Positions 3,798-31,813 of a stretch of DNA of 64,000 bases are shown here, in pieces. Source of the stretch: Clostridia bacterium. Lineage in GTDB: Bacteria > Bacillota > Clostridia > Christensenellales > CAG-138. How positions within the stretch are numbered: position 1 is the first letter of the stretch; each line of letters starts with the position of its first letter. The notes under the pieces were generated by a model that saw only the letters and a program-made list of their open reading frames with translations, did not search any database and had not been told where the DNA came from. The translations under genes were made by a program, and so were the position numbers. The stretch spans positions 1 through 64,000 of the forward strand of contig JAFXZJ010000054.1 of NCBI GenBank assembly GCA_017541305.1. The letters run 5' to 3'.

Positions 3798-6659
3798 TTA
3801 TCCGCCTATGGTATTGGGATCGTTATGATAGCTTACCTCGTTTACGGGGGTGAGCACGCCCGTGTCGAAGCTGAAATCGAACACGTGCCACAGCGTCCCG
3901 CCGGCGGTGGGAGGCACGTTGAATTCCCTGAACGAATCGCCGAAATAGACGACCACCTTTGCTCCCGACCTTGCCATTGCGTTGGAATCGCTCCTGGCCT
4001 TGTTGGAGAAGTCGTGCACGTAATAGCTGTAAGTGCCGCTGCTCTTCTTATAGACGGTGGTCTGCTCGGGACCGTAGCTGTCGGTATCGTCCCTGTCGAG
4101 ATCGGCATAGACGGTGCCGTCATGCGAATAAGTCCTTCCGTAGAAGGCGATGTGGAACCTGCCGCTTCCGGAAGCGGTGGGGCCCGTTAGATGCGAATCG
4201 AGATCATAGGGCACCTCGCCCCAGGTGAGCACGATGCGGATCTGATCCGCCGCTATGGTCGGGGTGAGGGGCAGCGCCTGATCGACGGCCTCGCCGGCGG
4301 AAACGACGTTGACGAAAGCCGTGATATAGTCCTCGTGCATGACCTCGGCGGTGTAATAGCCCGCCTTGAGCTTGTCGGTGTAGAATTCGCCGTTCTCATC
4401 CGAGGTCAGCTCGAGCACCGCGCCGTCGACGCTAACGTAATCGCCGGTCCTGGTGTCGTGGCCCGGCCTGAATCTGATCGCCGCGCCGGGAACGTAAGCG
4501 CCGGTGAACGTGTTGATCACGTAACCGCCGGCCACAGCCCCGCCCTCGGGATCGAGCATCACGGAATCGGAGATATAGGTGGTCTCGCCCGAGGTGACGG
4601 TCACTTCGTTCACGCGCCTGAACAGATAGCCATAGGCGGAGATGGTGATGGAATAGACGCCCTCGGGAAGCTTTATTTCGAAGCTGCCGTTGGCCTCGTC
4701 GGAGCGCAGCTCCCTGACGAGCCTGCCTTCCGCATCGAACACCTGCATGAGCGCGCGCCTGATGGGCTCGCCGGAAGCATTGGAGGTTATGACGCCCGCT
4801 ATCCTGCCCGAGCCGACCGCTATGCGGTAATCATGCATGCCGAATATCGCAAGCGCGCAATCGGGATTTTGGGGATCGACCGCGCCGTGCCTGGCGACCG
4901 CATTGTCGAACGCCTGCTTGGCGGTGGTCTTGTTAAGAGTCATGGACCGGGTCATGATCTCATCGAGCGTCGCGTTGCAGTAGCCGACGCTGACCGTATC
5001 GGTATAGCCGAACACGACGGACGCGCCCTTGGAAATGAGCGAATCGGCAATCGAGCTGTTGTAAGCGCTGTAACAGGTGCCCAGGAAGAACAGGGTGTTG
5101 TCGAACGCGTTGGCGGAATAGTAATGATCGAAGAACTTGTGCCCCACGGCAACGTGTCCGCTGTTGGCGAATATCACTATGCGCCTTGCCTGGACGTCCG
5201 CGGAATACTTGGGATCGTTTATATTTTGCGCGATCTCGCCTGTGACGAGATAGGGATCGGTCTTTGTATAGCCGTTCTCAACGTAATCGATCTTGGCGCC
5301 GTGGCTGTCGAACAGCACTATGCCGTAATCGCCGAGCGTCTTCAGGAATTCGAGATCCGCACTGCCGTCATCCCTGACAGTTACCGTTCCGCCGAGGTTT
5401 TCGGAAATGATCTCGGCACAATCCTTGAAGTCGTCATATTGGAACTGAGATCCCCTGAAGGGCCTTATTACGGCTATGTTCTTGTTGTCGGACGGAGCCG
5501 CCGCGCTCTCCTGCGCAAGCATGGAGGCGGTGTGGATCATTGCCGCGTTGATCGCTTCGGCAGAGGCCGTGCAGCCGCCCTTTCTGCCATCGTCGAACTT
5601 GGAATCCCAAACGCAGGTTATGCCCGCGTTGGTGGTGAAGGTGATCTCGCCCGTCTCCTCGTTCTCGATGCTGTATTCGATCTCGATATTCTCCTCGAGG
5701 AAATCCGACACCTCGCCGAAGCTGCCAAGGGACTGAATGGATGCTATTATGTCGTTGGCAGTGTTGAAATCGTTCTGAGTAAGATCGTTAAAATAGCAGA
5801 TATCAACGGGCTTGCTGGCGATATCCGCGCAGGAGGCCCTGTAGGACACGTTCCTTCTTGCGTCGGAGGAAAGGTTGAACGTGCCGCTGAAAATGCCGTC
5901 GTTCGCAAACAGATCGGGCGCGGCGCCGTCGTCGCGAAGCTGGCCTATCACGCTGCCGTCAGCATCGGACGTGAGGTTGACGGTATCGCTGACAAGATAT
6001 TCGGACATCATCTCGGCAAAGAACGTGACGGGCGCGCTTTCGCCCACGTGCACGTCTCTGATATCGGAATACAGATCGAGGAACGCGAATCTGTCGTTGC
6101 CGGTGGGGAGCTCGGTGGGAGCGGCCGGCGCGGGCTGAGTGGGCTGCGCGGGCTGTGCGGGCGCGCCTCCGCCCGAATACACGGGCCTGAACGTGAACTT
6201 ATACGTTCCCAGGCCAAAGCCGATCCTTGCTTCATACGCGGTCCCCGTGAAGGGCGAGACCGTTTTATTGATCGCCGTGCGCGGAACCGCGCTCTCGTTT
6301 GCCGCGTTCGGGCTGATCACGGCTGTGGGATAGCTGACGGTGAATTCGCCCTCCTCACCCGGCCTGAGCACGGGTATTGCCTCGGGCGAGATCTCGGCCT
6401 TGCCGAAATGCGCGAAATCGCCAGCGGAGGCCTCTATCCTGACGTCGGTTATATCCTCTTCGCTCACGTTCTTAGCCTTGATATCGAACGTGAGCACGTC
6501 GCCCCATTTGAACTCGGCATTGGCAAGGCTGATATCGAGCTCGGCGCTGTCGGAGCTTTGCGCGCCGGGACCGGGCAGTCCCCTGCCGCAGCCCGCAAGG
6601 CCCGCAGCCATGATCAGCACAAGCAGTATGCCGATCGCCCTCTTGAGATTTGTTTTCAT
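3798..6659 (-). CDS. Large caspase-fold (clan CD-like) lipoprotein with carboxypeptidase-regulatory repeats and a DUF2135/YfaP-like C-terminus
   Basis: A 953-residue predicted surface lipoprotein. It has a signal peptide and lipobox (LAGC, Cys24), a beta-rich region of about 35-290 (one section NEW3/CARDB-like), then a caspase-like core at about 390-615. The core shows the clan CD pattern: a hydrophobic strand ending in DSHGA (His453), then a strand ending in LFFLGTCYS (Cys529). Next come two carboxypeptidase-regulatory-like beta domains (about 618-700 and 705-800) and a C-terminal YfaP/DUF2135-like domain (VLTWGEVPYDLDSHLTGP). It is the last gene of the kinase/FHA/PP2C island. Protease activity is inferred from the dyad; substrates are unknown. 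A scaffold role is also possible. Confidence 0.72.
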   Translation of the reverse strand: MKTNLKRAIGILLVLIMAAGLAGCGRGLPGPGAQSSDSAELDISLANAEFKWGDVLTFDIKAKNVSEEDITDVRIEASAGDFAHFGKAEISPEAIPVLRPGEEGEFTVSYPTAVISPNAANESAVPRTAINKTVSPFTGTAYEARIGFGLGTYKFTFRPVYSGGGAPAQPAQPTQPAPAAPTELPTGNDRFAFLDLYSDIRDVHVGESAPVTFFAEMMSEYLVSDTVNLTSDADGSVIGQLRDDGAAPDLFANDGIFSGTFNLSSDARRNVSYRASCADIASKPVDICYFNDLTQNDFNTANDIIASIQSLGSFGEVSDFLEENIEIEYSIENEETGEITFTTNAGITCVWDSKFDDGRKGGCTASAEAINAAMIHTASMLAQESAAAPSDNKNIAVIRPFRGSQFQYDDFKDCAEIISENLGGTVTVRDDGSADLEFLKTLGDYGIVLFDSHGAKIDYVENGYTKTDPYLVTGEIAQNINDPKYSADVQARRIVIFANSGHVAVGHKFFDHYYSANAFDNTLFFLGTCYSAYNSSIADSLISKGASVVFGYTDTVSVGYCNATLDEIMTRSMTLNKTTAKQAFDNAVARHGAVDPQNPDCALAIFGMHDYRIAVGSGRIAGVITSNASGEPIRRALMQVFDAEGRLVRELRSDEANGSFEIKLPEGVYSITISAYGYLFRRVNEVTVTSGETTYISDSVMLDPEGGAVAGGYVINTFTGAYVPGAAIRFRPGHDTRTGDYVSVDGAVLELTSDENGEFYTDKLKAGYYTAEVMHEDYITAFVNVVSAGEAVDQALPLTPTIAADQIRIVLTWGEVPYDLDSHLTGPTASGSGRFHIAFYGRTYSHDGTVYADLDRDDTDSYGPEQTTVYKKSSGTYSYYVHDFSNKARSDSNAMARSGAKVVVYFGDSFREFNVPPTAGGTLWHVFDFSFDTGVLTPVNEVSYHNDPNTIGG

Positions 6660-6698
6660 AAGTCCCTCCTGTGTGAAATGTTTTCGCTGATATCCTTC

Positions 6699-9600
6699 TT
6701 ATCTTGCGCGGTATCTGACCCAGTGCTGCACATTGGTTATGGTCGAGGACGGCGATACCGGCGAATAGCTCGTAAGGTCCTCTACCTTTTGATATGTAAA
6801 CAGCATTCTGTACCTGGTCCAGCTGCATTCATAATACTTGAATCTGAACATGCGCGGCGTGCCGACATGGGTCGTATCCGTTATTATGCTGTGGCAGTAA
6901 TAACTGGGAAGATTCTGACTGCAGCAGTAGTAATTGTCAAGATACGGGCAATCCGCCGTCGACGCTATCGCTGTGAAGTATTTGTAGTTGAAGGCGCTTG
7001 AGCTTTGCCCGCCGTTATAATCCCAGAAGCCCCGCCTGCTTGAGATCGCCCTCGTTGTCGTGTTTGCATAGGAAACGTCATACATCCAATGCCAGTAAAT
7101 ATAGCCCTTGTGCGTATTCGACACGGTCTGCTTTTCGGTCTCGGTCTCATAGTCGGTCCTGGGCTGTACGTTATAAGCGGAATAAAGGCTGTGGCTCGTA
7201 TCGAAGCCCGAGGGGAATTCATTGGAATAGTTAAAGCTTCCCCTGTCGGCCTCCACCCATCTGCCTCCTATCCGATCGAACCCCTCCATGGAGGTTTCGT
7301 AGGATTCGATCGTGGTGGTCTTGGTGTATGTCCACTTTTCCTCAACGATCTGTGCGTCGGAGGGCATGTTTTCATAAAGCACCCAGCCGGATACGGGGTT
7401 CGGGTTCCATCTGGCGGTCAGCGTGATATCCGAAGTCGTATTGAACACCGTGCTTGAATGCACTTGCTCGCCGTCGGCAGTGAACCACCCCGCAAACCCA
7501 TAATAATCACGGATCGGCACGGGAAGGCTGCCTATCGGCTGACCGTATTGCGCCTCTATCGAAGCGGGCGAAACACGTCCGCCGTTGGGGTCGAGGCGTA
7601 TGGTGAAATGCGGTATGGGCGTGACGATCCTTTCCCAATGCGCATATACGGTAAACGAATTGTTGACCACCGTATTGCTGCTGACCTGCGTCCCCCCGGC
7701 GGCCTCCGTCCACCAGCCGCCGAAGCTGTAGCCGCTGCGCGTCACTGTGGGCAGTTCGCCAAGCTTGCGGCCCCTGTAATACCATCTTGTCTGACTTTCC
7801 GGCGTGCCGCCGTTGCCAAGGAAGCGCACCGCGATATCCGGCTCGGGGATCGGGGTCCATGTTTCCGGGGTCGCGCCGGGCGTGGGAGAGGGAGTTGCGG
7901 GCGTGTGGGGTGTAACTGTTATCTCGGGCACGGGTGTGCTCGTCGGCTCGGGTGTTTCCGGCTCGGGCGAAGCAGTGTCCGACGGCTCCGGCGAATCGGA
8001 TACGGTCTCCCGCACTATGTAAACGGTAACCTTCACCTGCTTTTCGATCGAAACGGTTTCACCCGTATCCTCGTTCAACATGGAGGCTGCGACAGTGATG
8101 CTTTGCACTGCAGTATCCGTCAGCTTTTCAACGTCAACGATCAGATACCCATCCTCGATGCGGGAATACTCCGTTCCGTCGTTCGTCACGTCCACACTGA
8201 CCTTGGCGGGATCTATGTTGGCGGGCACAAGCTTGTAAATATCCGAGATGCGCAAAGGATCGCTGTCGGCGTCCATCGCAATGCTGCTGCCGAAGGGCAG
8301 CTCGATATCGGAAAGGAGGCCGCCGCGGCTGACAATGAGCGTAACGCTCTGTTCGGGCTTAAGCGCAGCGCCGGAATCGGGATCCGTTCCCTTTATAACG
8401 CCCGCGCTCACGGTATCGTCATATTCATAGATCAGATCCACAGCATGGCCGCTCAGCAGCGCATTTGCCTCGTTAAGATCTGTGCCTCTGAGATAGGGCA
8501 TCACGCCCTCTTCCTGTTCGGACGCCATGCCCCTGTTGACCGTCACATTGATCGGCGTGCCGGGCATGACCAGCTCCCCATAGCGCGGGTCCTGCGCCAT
8601 TATGCAGCCCACGTCGACAGCGTCCGTTTCCTCGCTGCCGGTGATCGCAAAGCTCCAATCGCCGAATCTTGTCTTGGCCTCGTCCTCGGTCAGCCCCACA
8701 AAATCCGGCACGGTCTTCCTGCCGCTGGCTATTTTGTCGATCGAAACGCTGCCCTTAAGGTCGATAACGCCGCTGAGCAGCAGCGCGGCAAGCACGCCGC
8801 CCAGCAGGAGCACGCCGGCAAGCGCCGCATATACCCACCGGGAAAGCGCCCACGGCTTCATTTCTCTCTTATCGTCCTTTCTGGGGACTTCGGTGCTGAG
8901 AAGCTCGTTTTTGAACTCTTCCGCCGTTTGCGTGCGGCAGTCGATATTGGTATTGAGCGCGTTGAGAAGCGCCGTCTCCGCTCCTGCGGGGATATCCGCC
9001 CCAAGCCTGGACGGGGCCTTGAGCGTGTCGTTAGAAGCCCTTTCAAGCGATTCCTCGGGCGTTACGCCGGTGAGCATCTTATACATGGTCGCGGCGCACG
9101 CATACACGTCCGACCAGGCGCCCTGGTTCCCCCTGGAACGATACTGCTCGGGCGGCGCATAGCCCGGCTTGAGTATTACGGAAAGGCTTTTGGAGACGTT
9201 TGCCGTTGCATACCTTGCCGCGCCGAAATCCAGCAGCTTGACCCTGCCCTCGTTGGTTATGAAAATATTGTCCGGCGAGATATCCCTGTGGACAATGCCC
9301 TTTGAATGCACCTGCGAGAGCGCGTCAAGCACGGGTACGATCACGTTCATCGTATCCGCAAACGACTGAGGCCCCTCCTCCTCGAGCATGGCCTTGACCG
9401 TCCTTCCGTCAAGGAGCTCCATGACCATATAGGCCGTATTGTTTTCGAAGAAGCAGTCATAGATCGAAACTATGCCCTCGATGCTCCTGAATTTTGAAAG
9501 CCTTTCGGACTCGTCCACAAAGCTCTGCAAGCCCTTTATATAGCTCGCTTCGCTTTCATCGCCGCCGAAAACGCTGACGTTCACCGTGCCCGGCGTCCTT

Positions 9601-9857
9601 GTGGCGAACTCGCTGGGAAGGTATTCCTTGATCGCCACGCGGCGTTCGAGCACCGCGTCAAAGCCCGCGTACGTTACTCCGAAGCCGCCGTAACCGAGCG
9701 CGCGGCCGACAAGGTATCGGTCGCTTTTGAGCCACGTTCCCGGCGCAAGCTGATACGCCTCCCTGGGCTCCGTATTCCTTTTCAGATCGGAGCCGCAGAA
9801 GGGGCAGAACCCATCGGCGTCCTCTATCATTCTCGCGCAGTCAAAGCAAATCTTCAT
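6699..9857 (-). CDS. Transmembrane Ser/Thr kinase with two PASTA domains and Listeria-Bacteroides repeats
   Basis: A 1052-residue Hanks-type kinase. Residues 1-27 are a four-Cys zinc ribbon (CFDC...CPFC). The kinase domain (about 47-315) has the glycine loop GYGGFG, VAIK Lys77, HRD Asp192 and DFG Asp210, so it should be active. One TM helix follows (about 341-363). Outside are PASTA domains at about 380-443 and 452-512, an Ig-like beta domain, a Pro/Thr stalk, two Listeria-Bacteroides repeats (each ending in YGW/HW-type strands) and an aromatic- and Cys-rich C-terminal domain of about 230 residues. PASTA domains usually sense peptidoglycan fragments. It lies 39 bases before the caspase-like gene. 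Confidence 0.88.
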   Translation of the reverse strand: MKICFDCARMIEDADGFCPFCGSDLKRNTEPREAYQLAPGTWLKSDRYLVGRALGYGGFGVTYAGFDAVLERRVAIKEYLPSEFATRTPGTVNVSVFGGDESEASYIKGLQSFVDESERLSKFRSIEGIVSIYDCFFENNTAYMVMELLDGRTVKAMLEEEGPQSFADTMNVIVPVLDALSQVHSKGIVHRDISPDNIFITNEGRVKLLDFGAARYATANVSKSLSVILKPGYAPPEQYRSRGNQGAWSDVYACAATMYKMLTGVTPEESLERASNDTLKAPSRLGADIPAGAETALLNALNTNIDCRTQTAEEFKNELLSTEVPRKDDKREMKPWALSRWVYAALAGVLLLGGVLAALLLSGVIDLKGSVSIDKIASGRKTVPDFVGLTEDEAKTRFGDWSFAITGSEETDAVDVGCIMAQDPRYGELVMPGTPINVTVNRGMASEQEEGVMPYLRGTDLNEANALLSGHAVDLIYEYDDTVSAGVIKGTDPDSGAALKPEQSVTLIVSRGGLLSDIELPFGSSIAMDADSDPLRISDIYKLVPANIDPAKVSVDVTNDGTEYSRIEDGYLIVDVEKLTDTAVQSITVAASMLNEDTGETVSIEKQVKVTVYIVRETVSDSPEPSDTASPEPETPEPTSTPVPEITVTPHTPATPSPTPGATPETWTPIPEPDIAVRFLGNGGTPESQTRWYYRGRKLGELPTVTRSGYSFGGWWTEAAGGTQVSSNTVVNNSFTVYAHWERIVTPIPHFTIRLDPNGGRVSPASIEAQYGQPIGSLPVPIRDYYGFAGWFTADGEQVHSSTVFNTTSDITLTARWNPNPVSGWVLYENMPSDAQIVEEKWTYTKTTTIESYETSMEGFDRIGGRWVEADRGSFNYSNEFPSGFDTSHSLYSAYNVQPRTDYETETEKQTVSNTHKGYIYWHWMYDVSYANTTTRAISSRRGFWDYNGGQSSSAFNYKYFTAIASTADCPYLDNYYCCSQNLPSYYCHSIITDTTHVGTPRMFRFKYYECSWTRYRMLFTYQKVEDLTSYSPVSPSSTITNVQHWVRYRAR

Positions 9858-9874
9858 ATCGGTCTCCGCTGTGC

Positions 9875-12445
9875 TTACTCGATGACCCCGTTGGGGTGCA
9901 TCGCCCTGTATTCGGTGTACTGCCTGCGATCTACGCCGCTGCTCCTCAGCTCCACCTCGTTGAGCTTTGGCAGGGGGATTATGGGCGAGATATCGCTTAT
10001 CCTGTTCCCCGTTGCATGAAGCACCTCGAGCCCGGTCATGCCCGCAAGGGGAGTAAGATCCTCTATCCCCGTCGAATTGAGATAAAGCTTTTTCATATTG
10101 ACAAGCCCGCTGAGCGCCTCATAGCCCTGCGTGATGGGGTTATCGGCCAATATAAGGCTTTCGAGCTTTGTGAGCCCCGCAAGCGGAGCGATATTGCCTA
10201 TCCTGTTCTTCTGGAGCCCCAGCGCCGTGAGCTCGGTAAGACCCGCAAGGGGCGAAATATCGGCGATATCGTTTTCCCTGAGCTCGAGCGCGCGAAGCTT
10301 GCCGAGCGTTCCGAGCGGCGATATGTCCGTGATGCGGTTGTTGTTGAGCATGAGCGTGGTGAGCTCATTAAGCTCCCCTATGGGAGATACGTCCGTGATG
10401 CGGTTGTTTTTGAGCTCGAGCAGGAAGAGATTCCTGAATTTGGCAACGTCGCTTATATCTGTAAGGCCCAGATCGTTTAAAACAAGCTTTTTGACCTGCC
10501 ACAGATCGCGGTTGCGCACGACGGGGCCGAAGCCGCAGGCCTGCCTGACCGCGCGCTCGAACGCGGCGTCGGAAAACACGACTATCGCGTCCGGCGAATC
10601 GGGGGATACGGTGGGCGCCGCGGCCGCGCGGGTGACGACCACCCTGCGCCTGTCGGAAACGGTGACCGTGCGGCCGGTGAACTCGTCGCGCATGGACGCG
10701 GTGACGGTTATATAGGTTTCGCCGACTCCCGTGGGGGTGAATATGCCGTCGACGAATCTTGCCACCGATTCGTTTTCGGAGGCGCATACGACGCTGCATT
10801 TGCCGTCCTCTATGTTTGCTGGGATGAGCGTGTAGGGCACCTCGGCCCTTCCGCTTCGGATATCGAGCTCTATCGTGCTGCCTTCGTAATCAAAGCGCAC
10901 GTCCTCAAGCAGACCGCCGCGGCTGACTATCAGCTCCACGCCGTCGCCCTCGCGGTATTCGGCTCCGGCGGAGGGCGCGCTGCCCTTCACCCTGCCCGAA
11001 ACGACGCTTCTGTCATATTCATATCTGACGCTTATATTCGCGCCGGTGAGCCTGCCCCGGGCGGCTTCAAGGCTTTCGCCGCGAAGATACGGCATAATGC
11101 CCGCCGCGGTTTCGACGCCGCGGTTGACTATTATATTGATGGGCGTTCCCGGAGGCACCGAATCGCCGAAGCCCGGATCCTGCGCCATGATGCAGCCGAC
11201 CGCGACGTCTTCGGAAACATCGCTGCCGACCGTCCTCAGCTCCCATTCGGGCTGAGCGGAATGCACCTCGTCCTCGGTCATTCCGATTATATTGGGAACG
11301 GTGATATTGCCGCTGGTTATCCTGGATATCGCGGGCGTTCCGAAGCTTATCACGCCCGTGAGCAAGAGCGCGGCAAAAACGGCGCCCGCGCTGAGCACGC
11401 CCGCAAGCAGCCAATAGACCCATTTGGGGAGCGACCAGGGCTTTTTGCCCTTGACGTCGGTATAGCGCACCACCGTGACGGTGCTGCGAAGCTGATCCAA
11501 AAGCTCCTCCGCGGAGCGCGTGCGGCAGCTTGCCTCCACGTTGAGCGCGTTGAGTATGGCCGTTTCGGCGTTTTTGGGCAGCTTTACCCCGAGCTTGGAA
11601 GGGGGTATGAGCGTATCGTGCGCGGCTCTTTCAAGCGCGTCATCGGGCTTTCTGCCGGTGAGCATGCGGTAGAGCGTGGCGCCGGCCGCATAGACGTCCG
11701 ACCAGGGACCCTGATCGCCCCTGGTGGTGTACTGCTCCTTGGGCGCATAGCCGTATTTCAAAATGACCGAAAGGCTTTTTTCGGAAATGGCGGAGGCGTA
11801 TCTTGACGCGCCGAAATCCAGCACCTTCACCCTGCCGTCGTTCGTTAAGAAAATATTGTCGGGAGAGATATCGCGGTGGATGATGCCCTGTGAATGCACC
11901 TGCCTGAGCGCATCCAGCACCGGGATCATGATCTCAAGCGCTTCGTTATAGGGCAGGCGGCCGCGTTCATCCAGATAGCTTTTGAGCGTTTGCCCGTCAA
12001 GCAGCTCCATGACGAGATATGCGGTGTCGTTCTCAACGAAGCAGTCGAATATGTTCACTATGCTGTCGACGCTGTTGAATTTGGCAAGCCTTTCGGCCTC
12101 GTCCATAAAGCTTTGCAGACCGCTTATGAACTGCGTTTCGGTCGCTTCGCCGGGAAAGACGCTGACCTTTACGGTGCCGGGAAGCCTTGTTGCAAGCTCG
12201 CCCGGGAGGAATTCCTTTATCGCCACGCGCTTTTCAAGCAGCGCGTCAAAGCCCGCATAGGTCACGCCGAATCCGCCGTAACCCAGTGCGCGGCCGACTA
12301 TATAGCGATAATTCTTGAGCATCTGCCCGGGAGTGAGATGATAGGCTTCACGCGGGGACGGATCGGCGCGGGTGTCGGCGCCGCAGTATGGGCATACGGT
12401 CTGATCGGTATTGATCACGTGCGCGCAGTCATAACAAAGCTTCAT
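9875..12445 (-). CDS. Transmembrane Ser/Thr kinase with PASTA domains and leucine-rich repeats
   Basis: An 856-residue paralogue of the neighbouring kinases. It has an N-terminal zinc ribbon (CYDC...CPYC), a kinase domain with VAIK Lys77, HRD Asp192 and DFG Asp210, a TM helix near 340-362, two PASTA domains and an Ig-like domain. The C-terminal 220 residues hold about eight internalin-type leucine-rich repeats with the pattern L-x-L-x-x-N-x-I-x-D-I-S-P-L, a typical protein- or ligand-binding surface. The activation-segment motif is KYGYAPKEQY rather than the KPGYAPPEQY of its siblings. It ends 17 bases before the next kinase gene. Confidence 0.88.
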   Translation of the reverse strand: MKLCYDCAHVINTDQTVCPYCGADTRADPSPREAYHLTPGQMLKNYRYIVGRALGYGGFGVTYAGFDALLEKRVAIKEFLPGELATRLPGTVKVSVFPGEATETQFISGLQSFMDEAERLAKFNSVDSIVNIFDCFVENDTAYLVMELLDGQTLKSYLDERGRLPYNEALEIMIPVLDALRQVHSQGIIHRDISPDNIFLTNDGRVKVLDFGASRYASAISEKSLSVILKYGYAPKEQYTTRGDQGPWSDVYAAGATLYRMLTGRKPDDALERAAHDTLIPPSKLGVKLPKNAETAILNALNVEASCRTRSAEELLDQLRSTVTVVRYTDVKGKKPWSLPKWVYWLLAGVLSAGAVFAALLLTGVISFGTPAISRITSGNITVPNIIGMTEDEVHSAQPEWELRTVGSDVSEDVAVGCIMAQDPGFGDSVPPGTPINIIVNRGVETAAGIMPYLRGESLEAARGRLTGANISVRYEYDRSVVSGRVKGSAPSAGAEYREGDGVELIVSRGGLLEDVRFDYEGSTIELDIRSGRAEVPYTLIPANIEDGKCSVVCASENESVARFVDGIFTPTGVGETYITVTASMRDEFTGRTVTVSDRRRVVVTRAAAAPTVSPDSPDAIVVFSDAAFERAVRQACGFGPVVRNRDLWQVKKLVLNDLGLTDISDVAKFRNLFLLELKNNRITDVSPIGELNELTTLMLNNNRITDISPLGTLGKLRALELRENDIADISPLAGLTELTALGLQKNRIGNIAPLAGLTKLESLILADNPITQGYEALSGLVNMKKLYLNSTGIEDLTPLAGMTGLEVLHATGNRISDISPIIPLPKLNEVELRSSGVDRRQYTEYRAMHPNGVIE

Positions 12446-12471
12446 TTTGCCCCCCGATAAATAATCTTTTT

Positions 12472-12545
12472 GGCGCGTACAATACGCGCCGCGGTGATCG
12501 GTGCAATGGGAATACGCTTCCGGAAGTCCGGGCTTTCCGGAAGCG
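12472..12545 (-). repeat. Two intercistronic hairpins between kinase genes
   Basis: The 108-base gap holds two inverted repeats: GGCGCGTA/TACGCGCC (12472-12490) and CGCTTCCGGAA/TTCCGGAAGCG (12515-12545). Neither is followed by a T-run on the minus strand, so they are more likely RNA-processing, stabilising or attenuating structures than full terminators. Confidence 0.45.
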
Positions 12546-24671: not shown

Positions 24672-25577
24672 TTAGTAGCCGTAGCCGATAACTACAACGG
24701 TGGTGTTGTCGAGCGAGCGGACGCCGCGTCTTGCTTCGACCGCTTCGACGAGCTTGCGGGGAAGCGCTCTTAAATTGTTCTGATTATCCTTGACTATCGA
24801 TTCGATCTCGAGATCGGTGAGCACCTTATAAAGGCCGTCCGAGCAGAGTATGCACAGCCTGCCCTCGCTGAAGGGCACGCTGCCCTCGTCGATGAGCTTT
24901 ATGCCGCCCATGCCCACGTAGCTTATGAGCGCTTCGGCCTGGGGATGATTTTCCGCGTCGTAAAGGGTGATGGCGCCCTGCTCGACCTGAGTCATGAGCT
25001 CGAGCATATAGTTGTGATCCCTTGTGACCTTGGTGATCACGCCGTTTTCAAACATATAGATGCGGCTGTCGCCCACGGAGATCCAGTGAAGGCGGCCCCC
25101 CGAGATAACGGCCGCGACGGCGGTGGTGCCCGCCCTCATCCTCTGCCCGTTCTCGTCGGTCAGCGCATAGATGCTCCTGTCGGCCCTTATCACCGCGTCC
25201 TTCATGACCGCGCAGGGATCGTCGATCACGGAGCCGCGGTTTATGACGCTCTTATACAGCGTCTCGGCGCAGAGCGCGCTTGCCCTTTCGCCGCCCTGCA
25301 TGCCGCCCATACCGTCGCACACGGCGGCAAAAAGGCCGTTATGCTTGATAAAATAGGGGTCGTCCTTGGGCGACATGGTGCTTGAATCCTGCTGATACTT
25401 CCTCGTTCCGATGGTCGTATCGCCGTAGATGCAGATCTCCTTATCGAGCTTCCTTCTGCGCGCTGCGGCCTTGTCCTTATTGAGCAGACCCAGCAGGGAT
25501 ACCATCAAAAGGCCTATGCCTGCAACGAGTATGAGCGTGCCTAACACGAAAAGCAGAATGCTTATTGTATTGTCCAT
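24672..25577 (-). CDS. Membrane-tethered PP2C-type protein phosphatase
   Basis: A 301-residue PPM/PP2C Ser/Thr phosphatase. Residues 4-35 form an N-terminal TM segment. The catalytic domain shows the metal-binding motifs AVCDGMGG, RAGTTAVAAV, SVGDSRIYMF and ILCSDGL in order. The usual RxxNQD is RKYQQDS. It is the phosphatase expected to reverse the TM kinases, and its membrane anchor places it beside them. A palindrome lies 15 bases upstream of the start. Confidence 0.88.
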   Translation of the reverse strand: MDNTISILLFVLGTLILVAGIGLLMVSLLGLLNKDKAAARRRKLDKEICIYGDTTIGTRKYQQDSSTMSPKDDPYFIKHNGLFAAVCDGMGGMQGGERASALCAETLYKSVINRGSVIDDPCAVMKDAVIRADRSIYALTDENGQRMRAGTTAVAAVISGGRLHWISVGDSRIYMFENGVITKVTRDHNYMLELMTQVEQGAITLYDAENHPQAEALISYVGMGGIKLIDEGSVPFSEGRLCILCSDGLYKVLTDLEIESIVKDNQNNLRALPRKLVEAVEARRGVRSLDNTTVVVIGYGY

Positions 25578-25696: not shown

Positions 25697-27004
25697 TCAG
25701 CGCCTGATCCCGAGGAACACGTCCGATGAGGACAGCTGCAGCGTGATATCGGTCGCGAATTCGATCGGGACGCCCTTTTTAAGGTATTGCCCGCCCTCGA
25801 TCAGGAACGTGCCGTAGGTGGAAAGATCCGTGACGGTGACCGTGCCGCGTGACGCGTTATACCTTATGCGGCAGTGGGAGCGGCTGACGCGCATATCGCT
25901 CTTGACCAGGATATTGCAGGTTTGACTGCTCCTGCCGACGACGTAATCCACCCCGTCCGTGAGCTCAAAGGTCGCCGCCACGCGATTGCCGTAATACACG
26001 CTGAGCATGCCGCTGTCGGGCTTGTTCTTGGGAAGCGGCGGCACCGTGGTATCGTTGGTAAGATCGCATATGAAGCCGATCATGTCCTGAGTCCTCTGCT
26101 TATACCGAAGCTGAAGCGCCTTGTCGATCGCGTCGGACACGTTCTGCGGCACCTCGGGGCAGAGCTCCTTTACGGTGGGGATCTGCCTGCCGGAGAGGCG
26201 GTCGTTCGCATCGGGCACATTAACGCCCGTCACGATGCGGTAGAAGGTGCAGGCAAGAGCGTAAACGTCGGTATACGGGCCCTGGGGATTGACCTTGGAA
26301 TACTGCTCGGGCGGTGCGAAGCCCGGCTTTAATATTACCGAGAGCCCGCCGGAGCGGTTGTTGACGTAATCCCTTGAGGCGCCGAAGTCGATCAGCTTGA
26401 CCTGCCCGTTATTGCAGACCATTATGTTGTCGGGGCTGATATCGCGATGCAGCACGTTGAGATTATGCACCTGCGCAAGGCTCATCGCAACGTCGATCAC
26501 CATGCTGCGCGCGGTCTCGTAATCGATCCTGTCGCCGTGATTCTTGACGTATTTCTTGAGCGTGATGCCGTCGACGTATTCCATGACGATATAGGCGGTG
26601 TTTTTTTCATAGAAGAAGTCGGCGACCCTTACCACGCAGGGACAGTTGCGGAGCGAGGCCAAAAGGTTCGCCTCGTTATAGAATTTCTGCTTGCCTGCCT
26701 CGTAAGCATCCTGATAGCGCTGGGGCTCGACGTGCTCGGCGGTGTTCCTTATGCAGATGCTGCTGGGGAAATATTCCTTGAGCGCAACGCGGCTGCCCGT
26801 GCTGGTGTCATAGGCAAGATAAGTTATGCCGAAGCCGCCGGCGCCGAGCGTCCTGCCAAGCATATAGCGGTTATTGAGCACGGTGAAGGGCGGAAGCGCA
26901 TACTGAACGTGATCGCTGGCGGAAAGATCGAATCCGCAGCAGGGGCAGCGGGTGCTGCCCGGCGCCAGCCTTCCGAAACAGTTTGGACAAAAAACTTCTT
27001 TCAT
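25697..27004 (-). CDS. Soluble Ser/Thr kinase with C-terminal FHA domain
   Basis: A 435-residue kinase without a TM helix. N-terminal zinc ribbon (CPNC...CPCC), kinase domain about 45-310 with Lys76 (VALKEYFPSS), HRD Asp188 and DFG Asp206, then an FHA domain (about 345-430: VVGRSSQTCNILVK, VSRSHCRI, LSTYGTFL). It can both write and read phosphothreonine in the cytosol, and could relay the signal from the TM kinases. The FHA position usually holding Asn before Gly-Thr is Tyr (STYGTF), so binding may be altered. Confidence 0.88.
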   Translation of the reverse strand: MKEVFCPNCFGRLAPGSTRCPCCGFDLSASDHVQYALPPFTVLNNRYMLGRTLGAGGFGITYLAYDTSTGSRVALKEYFPSSICIRNTAEHVEPQRYQDAYEAGKQKFYNEANLLASLRNCPCVVRVADFFYEKNTAYIVMEYVDGITLKKYVKNHGDRIDYETARSMVIDVAMSLAQVHNLNVLHRDISPDNIMVCNNGQVKLIDFGASRDYVNNRSGGLSVILKPGFAPPEQYSKVNPQGPYTDVYALACTFYRIVTGVNVPDANDRLSGRQIPTVKELCPEVPQNVSDAIDKALQLRYKQRTQDMIGFICDLTNDTTVPPLPKNKPDSGMLSVYYGNRVAATFELTDGVDYVVGRSSQTCNILVKSDMRVSRSHCRIRYNASRGTVTVTDLSTYGTFLIEGGQYLKKGVPIEFATDITLQLSSSDVFLGIRR

Positions 27005-27020: not shown

Positions 27021-28808
27021 TCAGCAGGCCCTGATCATGATCTTGGTGCTGCCGATCTCGATAACGTCGTTTACGAACAGCTTTCTGTAACCGTTGACGG
27101 GAATGCCGTTGACCGTGGTGCCGTTGGAGGAACCGAGGTCGTTTATAAGTATATCGCCGTTCGAGAAGCACAGCGCGCAGTGCTGCCTGGACATGCGCTG
27201 ATCCTCGATCGCAAGATCGCAGGACGCGGCGGAGCGGCCTATTATGCAGCTGTCGGCAATGAACATGGTGACGGAGCGGCTGACGCCGTTCCTTTCGACC
27301 ACGGTGAGCTCGACGTTTTTGCCGTCGACCGCGGCAAGGTTCACCTTTGCGCCGCCTATCGCCGAGCCGGGAGCTCCGTTATAATCGGTACCGGCGGGCT
27401 CGGATTCGCCCGAAGAACCGCGCCTTCTCCTTAAGGCAACGAGCACGAGTATGACTATCAGAAGACCCAGCATCAAAAGGCCCAGGAGTATTATCCAGCC
27501 GAAGGCGAGGAACCAGTTGGTATTGGGCTCCTCGGGCTCGACGGGCCTGGGATTGCCTGTTTGAGTGAGCTTGGGCAGCGCGGAGGGATCGAGCGCCACC
27601 GCGTTCTTTTCGATAGAATCATCCGTGATGTTTATGAGATTTAAGTAATAAGTGCCGTCGTAAAGCTCGTCCTTGAGCTTGACCGTTGCCGTATTATCGG
27701 CGGAATCATAGGTCGCGCTGTCAAGCACGAGGGGCACGCCTTCGGAATCGGTTATGACGTAATTTGTGATCTTGTCCGCGCCGACGACGGGCTCGCTGTA
27801 ATGCACCTTGAGCGCGAAGGGATTTTTGACCACGATCGAATCCACGTAGGGGGCCTGCGTATCGGACTGCCAGGAATCGATCCTGAAATCCTTGATGGTG
27901 AGATTTGCCGCGCCGCCTTCCTTGTTGACCTTGAGCCTGAGGGTGCTGCCGGTGACGGAATTGGCGGGCGCCCTGAGCCTTATGAGCCAGCAGGAATCGA
28001 GCGTATCGGTGACGTCTTTGAAAAGCCGGCTGACCTTGTCGGGATCGGATCGGTCATTTTTGGAAATGTCAAAATACGTGCCGTTTGTTTTTTCGGTGAA
28101 CGAGGCAAGCTCCTGCCTGGCCTCGTGATTGTCGTCGCGCCCGACGCCGATGGTGAACATGGGCAGCTTTGCCTTCTGCATCCGCTCGAGCGTGCCCGGG
28201 CCGGTATACATGCCGGAGGAGGAATTGAGACCGTCCGTAACGGTTATCATCACGCAGCGGGTGCCGTCGGTGAGCCTTTCGGCCTTGTCGATCGCCTTAT
28301 TGAGCGCCTCGTAATATTTGGTGGTGCGGGACTGCTCCTGCTGCTCGAGGCCCTGTATGGCGGCGATCGCGGCAGCCCTGTCCTCATTGCCCTCGAGCAG
28401 GGTGCTGATCGTATCGCCCATGGGGATGAAGACGAGCTTGTCCTCGGCCTTGAGGGTGGGGACCCAATCGAGTATGGCGGCCTTGATATTGTCGAAGAAT
28501 TTCGCGCCGATGGAGCGTGAAACGTCTATCAGGAGCACGTAGACGGTGGGATCCTGCGAAGCGGGCTCCGCGGAGATCACGGAAAGCGATCTGCCGTCAA
28601 GATTGGCCTCGATATCGGCGGGCGACGCCTCGAAGCCGGGAACGCCCACTCCGTCGGCGTCGACGGGATAGAACCACACGTCGATATCGGGCATATCGGC
28701 GTAATACTGCTCGAGCCTGAGCTGAGCCACCCCGCCCGCCGCGAACGCGGGAACGCAGAGCGCCGCAAGCATGAGGAATATGAGTACGAATGAAAGCCCC
28801 TTTTTCAT
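27021..28808 (-). CDS. Secreted vWA-domain membrane protein with cytosolic FHA domain
   Basis: A 595-residue single-pass protein. It has a signal peptide (ends near AFAAG), an extracellular vWA domain at about 87-290 with the MIDAS start DVSRS (Asp95, Ser97, Ser99) and VTDG, a beta-rich domain, a TM helix at about 445-470 followed by an RRRR stop, and a C-terminal FHA domain inside the cell (IIGRSAASCDLAIED, MSRQHCAL, GSSNGTTVNG). It can link an extracellular adhesion or ligand event to phosphothreonine signalling. The ATG at 28808 is preferred because GGAGGG lies five bases upstream; a TTG at 28820 falls inside that site. Confidence 0.86.
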   Translation of the reverse strand: MKKGLSFVLIFLMLAALCVPAFAAGGVAQLRLEQYYADMPDIDVWFYPVDADGVGVPGFEASPADIEANLDGRSLSVISAEPASQDPTVYVLLIDVSRSIGAKFFDNIKAAILDWVPTLKAEDKLVFIPMGDTISTLLEGNEDRAAAIAAIQGLEQQEQSRTTKYYEALNKAIDKAERLTDGTRCVMITVTDGLNSSSGMYTGPGTLERMQKAKLPMFTIGVGRDDNHEARQELASFTEKTNGTYFDISKNDRSDPDKVSRLFKDVTDTLDSCWLIRLRAPANSVTGSTLRLKVNKEGGAANLTIKDFRIDSWQSDTQAPYVDSIVVKNPFALKVHYSEPVVGADKITNYVITDSEGVPLVLDSATYDSADNTATVKLKDELYDGTYYLNLINITDDSIEKNAVALDPSALPKLTQTGNPRPVEPEEPNTNWFLAFGWIILLGLLMLGLLIVILVLVALRRRRGSSGESEPAGTDYNGAPGSAIGGAKVNLAAVDGKNVELTVVERNGVSRSVTMFIADSCIIGRSAASCDLAIEDQRMSRQHCALCFSNGDILINDLGSSNGTTVNGIPVNGYRKLFVNDVIEIGSTKIMIRAC

Positions 28809-28832
28809 GTCACCCTCCAAAACGATCGGTAT

Positions 28833-29435
28833 TTATTTTTCCTTGTTGTCCTTATTGATAAAAGCGTCCCAGGTTATATCGCCGCGGCAGAAGGCGGAGA
28901 ATATGAATTCCGTTTCGCCGATGGTGATCCTTTCGCCGTCGTGTATCTCGACGGGATCGGTCACGACGGAGCCCCCCGCCATAAGATCCATCGAATTGCC
29001 CCCCGCAAGGAAAGTCCTGTTGGATCTGTGATCGTAAATGACCTCGGCGTGCTTTTTCTTGGATATGCGCGGATCGCTGTTGACGGCGATATCGTTGGAA
29101 TTGGCGCGGCCGATCGAATTCCTGCCCGCCTTGATCCTGAAATCCCTGCCCATTTCGGGACCGCTCATCGCAACGAGCCAGCCCACGACGGGCTCGGCCT
29201 TCATGCTCTTTTCATAAAACGAGATCGTCACCTGATCGTCATCGGGATCGGAAAAGGAGAGCGTTTTGGATTCATCGGGAGCGTCGAAGGCGAGCGTTTT
29301 GCTTTCGTCGCTGCGGGAGCTCATCCCCCTCCTGCCCCCATCCGCCAAAAACGCGTTGAGGTCGATCTTGCAGTGAGGACAGTTCTGATACTTTCTGTCG
29401 TCATAATAATGGCCGTTGGGGCACCTGACTATCAT
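28833..29435 (-). CDS. Zinc-ribbon FHA adaptor protein
   Basis: A 200-residue member of the adaptor family: CPNGHYYDDRKYQNCPHC ribbon, an acidic linker with repeated Ser/Thr sites (DESKTLAF, DESKTLSF, DDQVTISF) and an FHA domain (GRNSIGRANSNDIAV, ISKKKHAEVIY). The twice-repeated ESKTL motif looks like a phosphorylation site cassette. Its ribosome site lies in the last codons of the PP2C gene upstream (5-base gap), so the two are coupled. Confidence 0.82.
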   Translation of the reverse strand: MIVRCPNGHYYDDRKYQNCPHCKIDLNAFLADGGRRGMSSRSDESKTLAFDAPDESKTLSFSDPDDDQVTISFYEKSMKAEPVVGWLVAMSGPEMGRDFRIKAGRNSIGRANSNDIAVNSDPRISKKKHAEVIYDHRSNRTFLAGGNSMDLMAGGSVVTDPVEIHDGERITIGETEFIFSAFCRGDITWDAFINKDNKEK

Positions 29436-29440: not shown

Positions 29441-30193
29441 TTACCTCTTATCGCATATAACGGCGATCGCCGTGAAATTATCATTGCCCGCCTCGGGCTC
29501 CATGCCGGCGCACATGGCGCTGAGCCAATCCCTGGCGGTGAATTCGGGAAGGTTCCTCCTGCCGAACTCCAGCAGGCGCGCCATCCTTTCGCCCGTGACG
29601 TATTCCCAGAAGCCGTCGGAGCAGATCACGAACGCGTCGTAATCGCTTCCTTCCAGCTTCCTTTCGCTGCTTTGGAACCTGAAGGTCTCGCTGGCGGAGC
29701 CCATTGCGTGAAGCAGCACGCTGCGGTCCTCGCAGGTGCGGATCTCATCGGGCCCGATATCGCCCGTCATCACCATCATCTGCGCAAGGCTGTGATCGGT
29801 GGTGCGCCAGAGACGCCTGCCGTCGGCAAAATGATAGATCCTGCTGTCGCCAACGTGTACGGTGCAGACGTCGTCACCGGAAAGCAGCAGCGCCGCAAGG
29901 GTGGATTTATAAGCCCTTGGGTCGTTCGCCTGCTGCTGGAGCGCGCGAAGCGCGGCCTCGGCGGAATCGACGCCTTTTTCGATGCAGTCGTCCACGCTGC
30001 CCGCGCCCTCGATAAAGGGCTTGCGGAACTCCTCGCACACGGTCTTTGACGCAACATCGCCGAACCTGCACCCTCCCACGCCGTCGCACACGACGAACCC
30101 GTGCACGCCGCCGGCCTCGAACACGTCGGCGCGGTCCTGGTTGATCGTCCTGCCGCCCGTTGATGAAATCACGTAATAATCTATCTTGGTCAT
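29441..30193 (-). CDS. Soluble PP2C-type protein phosphatase
   Basis: A 250-residue PP2C phosphatase with GGRTINQDR, VVCDGVGG, VHVGDSRIYHF and VICSDGFWEY motifs. There is no TM helix. The ATG at 30193 begins MTKIDYYV; a TTG at 30217 is also in frame but falls upstream of the GGAGG site. It is the first gene after a promoter and follows a terminator, so it probably begins the main operon of the island. Confidence 0.88.
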   Translation of the reverse strand: MTKIDYYVISSTGGRTINQDRADVFEAGGVHGFVVCDGVGGCRFGDVASKTVCEEFRKPFIEGAGSVDDCIEKGVDSAEAALRALQQQANDPRAYKSTLAALLLSGDDVCTVHVGDSRIYHFADGRRLWRTTDHSLAQMMVMTGDIGPDEIRTCEDRSVLLHAMGSASETFRFQSSERKLEGSDYDAFVICSDGFWEYVTGERMARLLEFGRRNLPEFTARDWLSAMCAGMEPEAGNDNFTAIAVICDKR

Positions 30194-30217
30194 CTGCGTC
30201 GTGCACCTCCATTGCAA

Positions 30218-30307: not shown

Positions 30308-31027
30308 TCAGATGATGAGCGCTCCCGCCGTATAATTATCCATATTCCGATCCCGGCCGTTCTTTTCGACCTCGTCGGCCATTGAGGTGAGCCATTCAAG
30401 GGCGCTTGAAGCCTTCTTTAAGCGCTTGGCCATCTGCTTTTCGTCTATCAGCTCCCAGTAACCGTCGGTGCAGAGCAGGAACGCGTCGCCGGGCTTTACG
30501 GGAGTCGGCTCGGAAATATCGTATTTCAGGCCCATATCCCTGTCGCCTATCACGCGGAGCACGCGGTTCCTGTCGGGATGGTTGCGTATGTTTTTGAGCT
30601 TGAGCTCGCCCATCCTGACGAGCATACCGGGCACGGAATGATCCGCCGTCTGCGCGATCACGTTCCTTCCGCGGAACATATAGAGCCTGCTGTCGCCCAC
30701 GTGCGCCCAGCGCGCCATGCCGTTTTCGACCTTGAGCACCACGAGCGTGGTCCTCATATCGTGCATGCGCATGGACGAATCCTGTTTTTTAAGCACCGCA
30801 TCCTGCGCGGCCTGCACGGCTCTTTCAACAAAATCCGCGGCCTCGCCGTATTCTTTGAACGCGTTGATCACCGCCTCGACCGCGGTCGCGGAGGCCACCT
30901 CGCCGAAGCCGTGCCCGCCGAGCCCGTCGCACACGACCACGCAGTAAGCGCCGTTCCTTTCGGCGCACGAGGCGCAGTCCTCGTTGACGGTCCTTCCGCC
31001 CACTCTCGTGAGAGTTGCCTTATCCAT
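30308..31027 (-). CDS. Soluble PP2C-type protein phosphatase
   Basis: A 239-residue PP2C phosphatase with GGRTVNEDC, VVVCDGLGGHGFG, AHVGDSRLYMF and LLCTDGYWEL motifs. It is a paralogue of the 29441-30193 protein. It follows the LytTR gene by 27 bases and ends at a terminator, so the two form a unit. Having three phosphatases in one locus suggests different targets or compartments. Confidence 0.88.
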   Translation of the reverse strand: MDKATLTRVGGRTVNEDCASCAERNGAYCVVVCDGLGGHGFGEVASATAVEAVINAFKEYGEAADFVERAVQAAQDAVLKKQDSSMRMHDMRTTLVVLKVENGMARWAHVGDSRLYMFRGRNVIAQTADHSVPGMLVRMGELKLKNIRNHPDRNRVLRVIGDRDMGLKYDISEPTPVKPGDAFLLCTDGYWELIDEKQMAKRLKKASSALEWLTSMADEVEKNGRDRNMDNYTAGALII

Positions 31028-31054
31028 CCTGCTCTCCTTCCTTTTGTTCCCGTA

Positions 31055-31813
31055 TCACTTGAGCTTGATGAAGCTGCCCGAATTCTCGAACATCAGCGAG
31101 CTGCAGTAATCCTCGAAAAAGCTCTTGGTCGATTTCTGCTTCCTGACGCTGACGGGTATGCGCTCGCCGTTGGTAAGCTCGAGGCAGGCATAGTTCATAT
31201 CCTCGGGGTCGCATATATACATGCGGACGTAGTTTATGTTAACGATGAAGCTCTGGTGACATTTTACGAACCTTCCGTCGAGCCTCTTTTCGATGGCGGA
31301 AAGGTTTTCATTGATGGTCAGCTCGGAATCCGGCGTGTAAATGCGCACGGCCCTGGTCTGGCTTTCGACGTAGATTATGTTTCCGAACGGCATATAGGTG
31401 GTGATATTGCGATCGGAAACAAAAAGCCCCGCGCTGCGGTTATAATCGGCCTTTGCCCTGCATGATCTTATCACGCCTGCGGCAAGGCCCATATCCAGCG
31501 GAACGGGAAGCAGCGCGGAATGGGCGATACAGTGGTTCCTGAAATCGACCGCCTTGCCCGAATACAGATAAACGAACTGTATCGCGGGGTAATTTTCCCT
31601 GATATAGGGGAGCAGCTCGGCCGTGCCGAAATTGACCGAGTCCGGCTCGGTCATAAGAACGTCCACAGTATAGCCCCAATCCTCGATATAGCCGATGAAT
31701 CGGTTTGGATCGTTTATGCAGGTGACGGTGTCGTTCCCTCCGAGAAGCGTCATAAGCATCGGGGCGACGCTTTTCAAGACCCCGTCATCAGCAGTGTAGA
31801 TCAGCACGTGCAT
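31055..31813 (-). CDS. LytTR-type DNA-binding regulator with degenerate receiver
   Basis: A 252-residue regulator. Residues 1-125 resemble a response-regulator receiver, but the strand that should carry the phospho-acceptor reads VDVLMTEPDSV and lacks a clear Asp at the site, and the acidic pocket near the N-terminus is ADDG. Residues 145-250 are a LytTR DNA-binding domain (IIYVESQTRAVRIYT, RFVKCHQSFIVNINYV). It is the promoter-proximal gene of the island and the best candidate for its transcriptional control. How it is switched is not known; Ser/Thr phosphorylation is possible. Confidence 0.82.
   Translation of the reverse strand: MHVLIYTADDGVLKSVAPMLMTLLGGNDTVTCINDPNRFIGYIEDWGYTVDVLMTEPDSVNFGTAELLPYIRENYPAIQFVYLYSGKAVDFRNHCIAHSALLPVPLDMGLAAGVIRSCRAKADYNRSAGLFVSDRNITTYMPFGNIIYVESQTRAVRIYTPDSELTINENLSAIEKRLDGRFVKCHQSFIVNINYVRMYICDPEDMNYACLELTNGERIPVSVRKQKSTKSFFEDYCSSLMFENSGSFIKLK

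Follow-up and report, generated by a model that had tools for sequence, protein, structure and literature searches.

A recurrent operon of kinases, FHA proteins and PP2C phosphatases in Clostridia: a candidate free-standing threonine-phosphorylation pathway

Bacterial trios of kinase, PP2C phosphatase and FHA protein are best known for regulating secretion or mycobacterial metabolism. The window analysed here, a stretch of 64,000 nucleotides from a Clostridia bacterium (contig JAFXZJ010000054.1), holds a block of such genes at 3798-31813, and the question raised by this locus is whether they serve a secretion system or a pathway of their own. The best reading is that the block is a threonine-phosphorylation pathway like that of the type VI secretion system (T6SS), present without a T6SS. 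As a general mechanism, a free-standing, envelope-facing pathway of threonine phosphorylation is considered probable.

Composition and recurrence of the block

The block comprises 19 genes (g1 to g19; Table 1), all on the minus strand and separated by intergenic gaps of 5-141 bp, with the LytTR gene first and the caspase-like lipoprotein gene last. The initial annotation had described eighteen consecutive genes on one strand; the single strand was correct, and the count is 19 both by gene calls and by the sum of that annotation's own list. Pfam assigned one LytTR, three PP2C, eight FHA and five kinase domains to the 19 proteins, the FHA and kinase domains over the gathering score. Together with motif reading, this agrees with the earlier inventory of five intact kinases, two pseudokinases, three PP2Cs and eight FHA domains. 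The regulator at the head (PF04397) and the lipoprotein with a caspase-type His/Cys pair at the tail were also found where they had been placed, the caspase-like label resting on motifs.

Relatives were searched with an alignment of the zinc-ribbon FHA (zrFHA) family, giving at least 542 zrFHA-encoding stretches (stretches, not species) among 84,980 species genomes; a single-protein vWA-FHA search of this collection found nothing. The best-scoring relatives, 80 named loci, were fetched by their zrFHA gene with flanks of up to 10 kb, some contigs ending sooner. Kinase, PP2C, vWA-FHA and transmembrane (TM) FHA genes recurred across these loci, 643 of 648 recognised genes lay on the same strand, and vWA-FHA, kinase and PP2C genes were consecutive in 40/80. 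The Pc PP2C cluster was present in 62 loci, the Pa cluster in 34 and the LytTR cluster in 20. The window order from g4 to g9 (zrFHA, vWA-FHA, kinase, Pc, zrFHA, TM-FHA) was consecutive in 12/80 relatives, and the order LytTR, Pa, zrFHA, vWA-FHA, kinase, Pc was found in three (L065, L098 and L103); the window has the latter likewise, plus the extra g3. The block thus shows the layout of a zrFHA operon family in which zrFHA, vWA-FHA, kinase and PP2C genes adjoin in a shared order on a single strand. This recurrence is well beyond chance. Conserved synteny across Clostridia, on which the initial annotation had staked its claim, was therefore observed: the genes do co-occur in other genomes, on one strand and with recurrent neighbours.

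Searches of defined genome sets were also carried out. The vWA-FHA query matched 7 of 61 genomes at E <= 0.001; after the host came G024 (1.7e-76), a genome of the same family, and the other five were at 8e-8 or weaker. G024 encodes a compact version (zrFHA, vWA-FHA, kinase-FHA, PP2C, zrFHA, TM-FHA, kinase), adjoined by a serine-recombinase gene (Pfam Resolvase and Recombinase). Among 391 genomes of the class, own included, a vWA-FHA profile matched 8 at E <= 1e-20 and a ten-sequence zrFHA profile matched 31. A 56-sequence zrFHA profile matched 17/398 phylum genomes at E <= 1e-25, their surroundings being read just where already known. Neighbourhoods were fetched for the 30 other class genomes, which were grouped without a tree into 21 and a distant group of nine. 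In the stretches from the 21, PP2C genes were present in 21/21 and island-type kinases in 19/21, the other two (G138 and G315) lying near a contig end.

All eight FHA matches in the 2.42 Mb host genome (91% complete) lay inside the block, and no FHA domain was found in 12 same-genus genomes, indicating that the block is an accessory island within its genus. Any FHA domain was present in 21 of the 61 genomes searched, own included.

Sensors, linkers and the predicted pathway

The G-loop, VAIK Lys, HRD and DFG motifs are kept in the five block kinases and not in g14 and g15. g14 scored just 15 bits with Pkinase and lacks the standard HRD and DFG motifs; g15 had no Pkinase match and retains the N-lobe alone, with the Lys replaced by Thr. 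PDB searches of the kinase parts took in g6, g13 and g16 (g17 and g18 aside), and the best solved relative was PpkA each time (143.7, 179 and 157.8 bits, respectively). g13 resembled PpkA more closely than the PASTA kinases in the PDB; its near full-length relatives are in G202 (SBP_bac_8 at 28 bits there, over the cut-off), L100 and L106.

The kinases of the 80 loci were sampled as follows. From 165 candidates of 400-1400 residues, 51 were chosen (longest per locus, longest first, to a residue limit), and 48 of these were aligned and scanned, three being left out; such a choice of long proteins favours large ectodomains. The kinase model matched 47/48. Their ectodomains included PASTA (15), RCC1 (7), leucine-rich repeats (LRR; 3), WG (3), solute-binding-protein domains (3), Ig-like (3), Sel1 (2) and C-type lectin (2). 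Diverse outside sensors on the kinases, as proposed in the initial annotation, were thus found both within the block and among relatives; that they are wired to one set of phosphothreonine readers, as further proposed, is a prediction from the domains. Among 186 kinase-related proteins of the 80 loci, 29 lacked at least one of three catalytic residues (four uncertain owing to gaps), and these were distributed one apiece over 29 loci. Because no locus had more than one such protein, the pseudokinase appears to be a regular part of the system, not decay.

In the AlphaFold model of g8, the zinc ribbon and the FHA domain were confident and the linker joining them was of low confidence (disordered). 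Linker statistics were obtained from 97 of 125 zrFHA sequences, 28 without a readable linker being dropped. T followed by V, I or L occurred 253 times versus 88 in shuffles, and an acidic residue one to three places ahead of KT[VIL] occurred 62 times versus 1.8. KS[VIL] was at chance (4 versus 3.8), and no enrichment of T[DE] was seen (84 versus 99.6). The last T[VIL] preceded the GWLV motif by 12 residues in 34 linkers and by 15 in 15. The case for this motif is better made by the contrast between Thr and Ser and by its repetition inside a single linker, with three copies in g4. The best solved relatives of zrFHA, by profile and by fold, were GarA and OdhI, and the ArnA FHA domain (5a8i) was among the Foldseek hits of the g8 model.

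Of 60 vWA-FHA proteins, 50 have a hydrophobic segment late in the sequence and an FHA motif after it, and 37 of these 50 also have an N-terminal segment, which fits a vWA domain predicted outside and an FHA domain inside the membrane; the hydrophobic segments of g5 are at 9-27 and 443-461. Relatives encode further FHA-bearing membrane proteins, namely four-TM proteins, FHA-ABC transporters and trypsin-FHA proteins, the last detected by Pfam in three class genomes, with a trypsin match in just 1/80 named loci. In the PDB search of g2 the best hit was 2j82 (92.6 bits), and PppA (6jkv, 69.9 bits) was among the hits though not the top one. The LytTR cluster representative has LytTR plus a receiver by Pfam. 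No receiver match was obtained by Pfam for g1, and in an alignment with 25 relatives, among which conservation of the usual acceptor Asp is mixed, g1 lacks that residue.

We propose the following mechanism. Four membrane kinases, which have their zinc ribbon and kinase domain in the cytoplasm, would sense putative ligands through an outside domain (solute-binding-like in one, PASTA plus LRR in two, PASTA plus InlB repeats in one), and together with the two pseudokinase receptors would feed the soluble kinase-FHA protein g6. The main substrates and readers would be the three zinc-ribbon FHA proteins, in whose disordered linkers the repeated acidic-K-T-[VIL]-x-hydrophobic motifs are probably phosphorylated by the PpkA-like kinases. 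A phosphorylated motif may then dock onto its own or a partner's FHA domain, like the ETTS motif in GarA/OdhI. Membrane FHA proteins (with vWA outside or four TM segments; in relatives FHA-ABC transporters, trypsin-FHA or EssC) would be recruited or released, and the predicted output is a change in envelope or surface activities. The three PP2C enzymes would remove the phospho-marks and reset the pathway, and LytTR probably sets expression. A broader claim, to which we give even chances, is that the block represents an unnamed, widespread signalling system of Clostridia, in which a conserved phosphothreonine hub (zrFHA switches, kinase-FHA and PP2Cs) is combined with swappable outside-facing kinases and swappable FHA-tagged envelope machines (ABC transporter, protease or EssC in some lineages). 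Such a system would be to phosphothreonine what two-component arrays are to phospho-aspartate.

Table 1. Coordinates of the block genes and of other features. TM segments in the block were called from hydropathy alone; zinc ribbons were mostly read from the Cys pattern, with Pfam scores below cut-off.
Feature	Description	Position	Strand	Evidence
g1	LytTR-type regulator, degenerate receiver-like N-terminus	31055..31813	-	PF04397 66.8 bits
g2	Soluble PP2C phosphatase (Pa type)	30308..31027	-	PF13672; DGxGG-type motifs
g3	Second soluble PP2C	29441..30217	-	PF13672 59.7 bits; 33% identity to g2
g4	zrFHA 1	28833..29435	-	PF00498 27.6 bits; zrFHA family alignment; three T[IL]xF linker motifs
g5	Signal-peptide-like segment - predicted extracellular vWA (DVSRS motif) - TM - cytoplasmic FHA	27021..28820	-	PF00092, PF00498; family pattern
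g6	Soluble zinc-ribbon - kinase - FHA, catalytic residues intact	25697..27004	-	PF00069 129 bits; PF00498 42.6 bits
g7	Membrane-anchored PP2C (Pc type)	24672..25577	-	PF00481 56 bits; hydrophobic segment 7-25
g8	zrFHA 2	23987..24628	-	Pfam; AlphaFold model; Foldseek
g9	Four-TM protein, C-terminal FHA	22970..23971	-	PF00498 41.9 bits; four hydrophobic segments
g10	zrFHA 3	22283..22927	-	PF00498 31.6 bits; 55% identity to g8
g11	Four-TM FHA protein 2	21506..22255	-	PF00498 42.5 bits; four hydrophobic segments
g12	Short soluble FHA protein, near-duplicate of g11 FHA	21033..21392	-	PF00498 43.7 bits; 67% identity to g11 over 104 aa
g13	Zinc-ribbon kinase - TM - extracellular solute-binding-protein-like domain	18822..20891	-	PF00069 131 bits; SBP_bac_8 23.6 bits, below cut-off 27
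g14	Pseudokinase - TM - PASTA x2	16681..18756	-	PASTA 61.6 bits; kinase residues lost
g15	Truncated zinc-ribbon pseudokinase N-lobe - TM - PASTA x2	14953..16593	-	PASTA 62.1 bits; Lys->Thr, without C-lobe
g16	Zinc-ribbon kinase - TM - PASTA x2 - LRR	12554..14923	-	Pfam; motifs
g17	Zinc-ribbon kinase - TM - PASTA x2 - LRR	9875..12445	-	Pfam; motifs
g18	Zinc-ribbon kinase - TM - PASTA x2 - InlB-type (Flg_new) repeats	6699..9857	-	Pfam; motifs
g19	Lipoprotein, caspase-like His/Cys pair, carboxypeptidase-regulatory-like domains	3798..6659	-	PF13620; lipobox read from sequence
Stem after g2	Terminator-like stem	30306-30293
Boxes before g3	Promoter-like boxes	30257-30218
Small gene	Directly after the block	3206-3778		No Pfam match
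Site at small gene	Extended-promoter-like site	3742-3714
Stem at small gene	Terminator-like stem	3191-3170
L100	Kinase/FHA block with EssC downstream, same strand	15071-20053
L106	Kinase/FHA block with EssC downstream, same strand	15151-20130
L139	Kinase/FHA block with EssC downstream, same strand	15633-20744
L043 (G202)	DUF6382-FHA protein	5637-6968
L038 (G030)	Type VII secretion system-like locus	2862-19998

Secretion and the other explanations

Pfam scanning of the 19 block genes and 10 flanking proteins returned no secretion gene, and queries for WXG100, EssC, VgrG and Hcp had no match in any window frame of at least 60 aa, in line with the initial annotation. No T6SS structural gene (sheath, ClpV, Hcp or VgrG) was present in the block or scanned flanks, the rest of the genome not having been searched for T6SS genes. 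In the host genome WXG100 gave 0 matches, and the single FtsK-type match to EssC, at 103.5 bits, was far from the cut-off of 778.4. WXG100 was found in 4/61 relatives. We also examined 32 genomes, the 31 zrFHA genomes of the class plus G024. WXG100 was present in four and absent from 28, and EssC over cut-off was present in three and absent from 29; wherever present, these genes were separated from the zrFHA locus by over 900 kb or were on a different contig, in which case the two contigs might still join at their ends. On the other hand, EssC lay within the fetched flanks of at least three of the 80 loci (L100, L106 and L139), on the strand of the block and separated from it by a few to several genes. 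L139 also has WXG100 genes; in L100 the EssC carries an FHA domain and a LytTR-like gene comes after it. A weak WXG match in L034 (16 bits, E 0.0035) was set aside. These results indicate that the module can adjoin a type VII secretion system (T7SS) but usually does not. By the genome-wide EssC/WXG100 tests, the idea that a T7SS always accompanies the block was rejected in the host and in most of the 32 genomes, and the block is not always found beside a known secretion system.

The best of the alternatives, and still unlikely, is that the block controls a secretion system of the T7SS or contractile-injection kind whose machine is lost, unassembled or elsewhere in the genome. The PpkA-like kinases g6, g13 and g16 and the loci with EssC speak for it, as does the presence of kinases in T7SSc, d, e and j and of PPM phosphatases in T7SSc, e and j, according to the available excerpts of PMC11217815. 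These excerpts describe T7SSc-j loci with a kinase, a PPM phosphatase, and FHA or vWA parts, with a LytR-like regulator in T7SSi, a similar Bacillota toolkit to that of the block. The T7SSc vWA protein is described there as probably cytoplasmic, unlike the block vWA domain, which is predicted outside the membrane. With no EssC over cut-off and no WXG100 in a 91% complete genome, the block is not a member of the T7SS. Eight class genomes with a distant zrFHA beside Hcp-like genes, five of them with a VgrG-like match, also favour a link to secretion, but no island-type kinase was found in the nine fetched stretches of that distant group. The earlier description of the block as self-contained and apart from secretion therefore holds in so far as the block is mostly free-standing; that it is wholly unrelated to secretion does not hold, given the PpkA-like kinases, the three EssC loci and the group with Hcp- and VgrG-like genes. 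PF16697 (Yop-YscD_cpl, named for a type III secretion system part) matched some block FHA domains, above cut-off in g5; we read this as the shared FHA fold.

Several loci are of interest in their own right. In the distant group, eight of the nine genomes (all but G240) have Hcp-like genes and encode a common ~725-residue protein that Pfam did not recognise, and five of the nine have a VgrG-like match. The eight loci (L045, L047, L048, L051, L053, L054, L055 and L061, from G388, G100, G128, G445, G228, G146, G261 and G302, respectively) have PP2C and DnaJ-like genes beside the Hcp-like gene and the ~725-residue gene (8/8 for both), with VgrG-like in five and DUF4280 in three. L045 has RHS genes, and its Hcp-like match to PF17642 was weak, below cut-off. 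These loci are possibly a contractile-injection-like cluster of Clostridia. The DUF6382-FHA protein encoded in L043 has the same layout as that described for the T7SS proteins TseJ/TsfJ, and its genome, G202, has neither WXG100 nor EssC over cut-off. L038, in a genome of the same family as the host, has WXG100 genes, a long EssC-like gene, a PP2C and tandem divergent kinases; this T7SS-like locus has a kinase array of its own, which differs from the window kinases (about 30% identity).

Slightly less likely again is a cell-envelope homeostasis network, in which an expansion of PASTA kinases watches peptidoglycan and tunes wall synthesis through FHA adaptors. PASTA domains are present on 5/7 kinase-like proteins of the block and on 15/48 sampled kinases of relatives, but 33/48 had no PASTA match and g13 is closer to PpkA than to the PASTA kinases. 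Moreover, the host has two further kinase matches outside the block, including one at C50 (182.7 bits). In each of 13 genus genomes a single kinase match scored 182-201 bits, its frame being 602-697 aa long; this is taken for the usual housekeeping kinase.

The tail gene g19 was examined separately. Three relatives (G278, L099 and L103) conserve both its His (DSHG) and its Cys (GTCYS). The protein had no Pfam peptidase match and no PDB profile match across the caspase-like region, and AlphaFold with three sequences gave a poor model (mean pLDDT 37.6). Related genes occur in the kinase/FHA loci G278, L080, L099, L103 and L115, those of L080 and L115 matching the C-terminal part alone; by count they are in 4/80 loci, with the caspase-like region matched in just two of the four. 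Among the 391 class genomes, 18 match g19 at E <= 1e-20, mostly in the C-terminal part alone (about 616-952), and five of the 18 are also among the 31 zrFHA genomes (host, G164, G202, G278 and G298). g19 was thus rejected as a core member and is a loose partner at best: the gene with its His/Cys pair does stand at the block tail, as annotated, and it is not a regular part of the recurring cluster. An anti-phage or programmed-death system with the kinases as sensors and the lipoprotein as killer is highly improbable: PADLOC defence kinase models (PD-T4-6, mad6) strongly matched the three kinases scanned, a candidate PP2C model matched g3, and genes with the caspase-like region lie in kinase/FHA loci of G278, L099 and L103, but those kinase models are taken to match Ser/Thr kinases generally, g4, g5, g7, g9 and g19 had no PADLOC match, g19-related genes are as rare as stated, and the predicted lipoprotein anchor places g19 outside the cell while the sensors face outwards.

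Several observations weigh against the preferred reading, a free-standing threonine-phosphorylation pathway. Phosphorylation in the block is deduced from domains, and any caspase activity of g19 from a motif pair. The linker shuffles ignore common descent, so the significance of the motif is overstated. In the FHA domains of zrFHA proteins the loop where Asn-Gly is usual departs from the norm, and 83/107 members show a GR..S..H pattern, so that some of them may bind without phosphate. The 80 loci, as the best-scoring ones, are a biased sample; long strict orders are rarer in them than pairs (12/80 and 3/80), and 34/80 loci are shorter than 19.5 kb. With EssC beside the block in three relatives, a secretion role in some lineages is possible.

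Surroundings, known counterparts and significance

The block is flanked on the left by RNase III-domain, SpoU methylase and sigma-70-family genes and on the right by carboxylesterase, FeoAB and DUF1538 genes. The GC content is 0.57-0.60 in the block versus 0.54-0.59 around it, and a recent foreign origin is unsupported by base composition; no tRNA was found in the window. The left-flank sigma gene is present in 10/12 same-genus genomes. Its surroundings were fetched for eight, G003 and G004 being left out with the gene within 750 bases of a contig end, and in four of the eight the contig ends at most 2.1 kb beyond it. In G008, G006, G005 and G002 other genes follow the sigma gene and no block genes were seen there; in G006 a frame resembling an antisense frame of the right-flank carboxylesterase lies ~10 kb beyond. 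The stem after g2 and the boxes before g3 hint at two transcripts; this signal is weak because terminator-like sites are about as frequent as in shuffles (28 versus 23.3) and promoter-like ones only somewhat more frequent (16 versus 8.8). The small gene after the block has a promoter-like site and a stem of its own.

Among known systems, the block would work most like the T6SS threonine-phosphorylation pathway plus a GarA-like switch. GarA and OdhI are reportedly intramolecular switches. They have an N-terminal extension with a phosphorylatable Thr motif, including the ETTS peptide, in the excerpts of PMC8546545. The zrFHA layout is alike, with a Thr motif, predicted to be phosphorylated, in the extension before a single FHA domain; unlike GarA/OdhI, zrFHA proteins have several Thr motifs and a zinc ribbon at the N-terminus. 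As in the PpkA-PppA-Fha pathway of the T6SS (excerpts of PMC5995506), PpkA-type kinases, PP2Cs and FHA proteins are encoded together. Unlike that pathway, the block lies in a clostridial host, lacks T6SS genes in itself and the scanned flanks, carries zinc ribbons, and has several kinases with varied ectodomains; its vWA domain is on an FHA protein and not on the kinase, whereas Pseudomonas aeruginosa PpkA has one at its end (PMC1262709, in part). The block is not assigned to the T6SS because no structural gene was found in the window.

A striking parallel, common ancestry aside, is the Arn network of Sulfolobus, in which the zinc-finger-FHA protein ArnA, the vWA protein ArnB, the kinases ArnC/ArnD and PP2A act in regulation (PMC6509490); both combine a zinc-finger FHA with vWA and Ser/Thr kinases. 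The block has PP2C in place of PP2A, and the available passages of that paper describe no vWA-FHA fusion or ectodomain kinases. The vWA-MoxR conflict systems (excerpts of PMC7159879) have a MoxR AAA ATPase, and no AAA/MoxR domain was found in the 19 proteins. No ter-type family was among the Pfam hits of these proteins either. The TerY-P triad of tellurium-resistance type systems unites vWA, PP2C and kinase; the block differs from it in its FHA proteins, ectodomains and operon layout.

In the open-licence literature, as far as its text was available, no prior description of this operon was found. The novelty lies in how the genes are arranged and not in any one protein family: a known kinase/PP2C/FHA toolkit here forms a stand-alone operon that is modular and recurs widely. 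The conserved linker motif makes the mechanism directly testable. Among the 80 loci are some from named gut isolates of Hungatella, Blautia, Anaerostipes, Faecalicatena and Faecalibacterium. If the proposed pathway is true, it would be a candidate for a major means of environmental sensing in gut Clostridia, by way of threonine phosphorylation.

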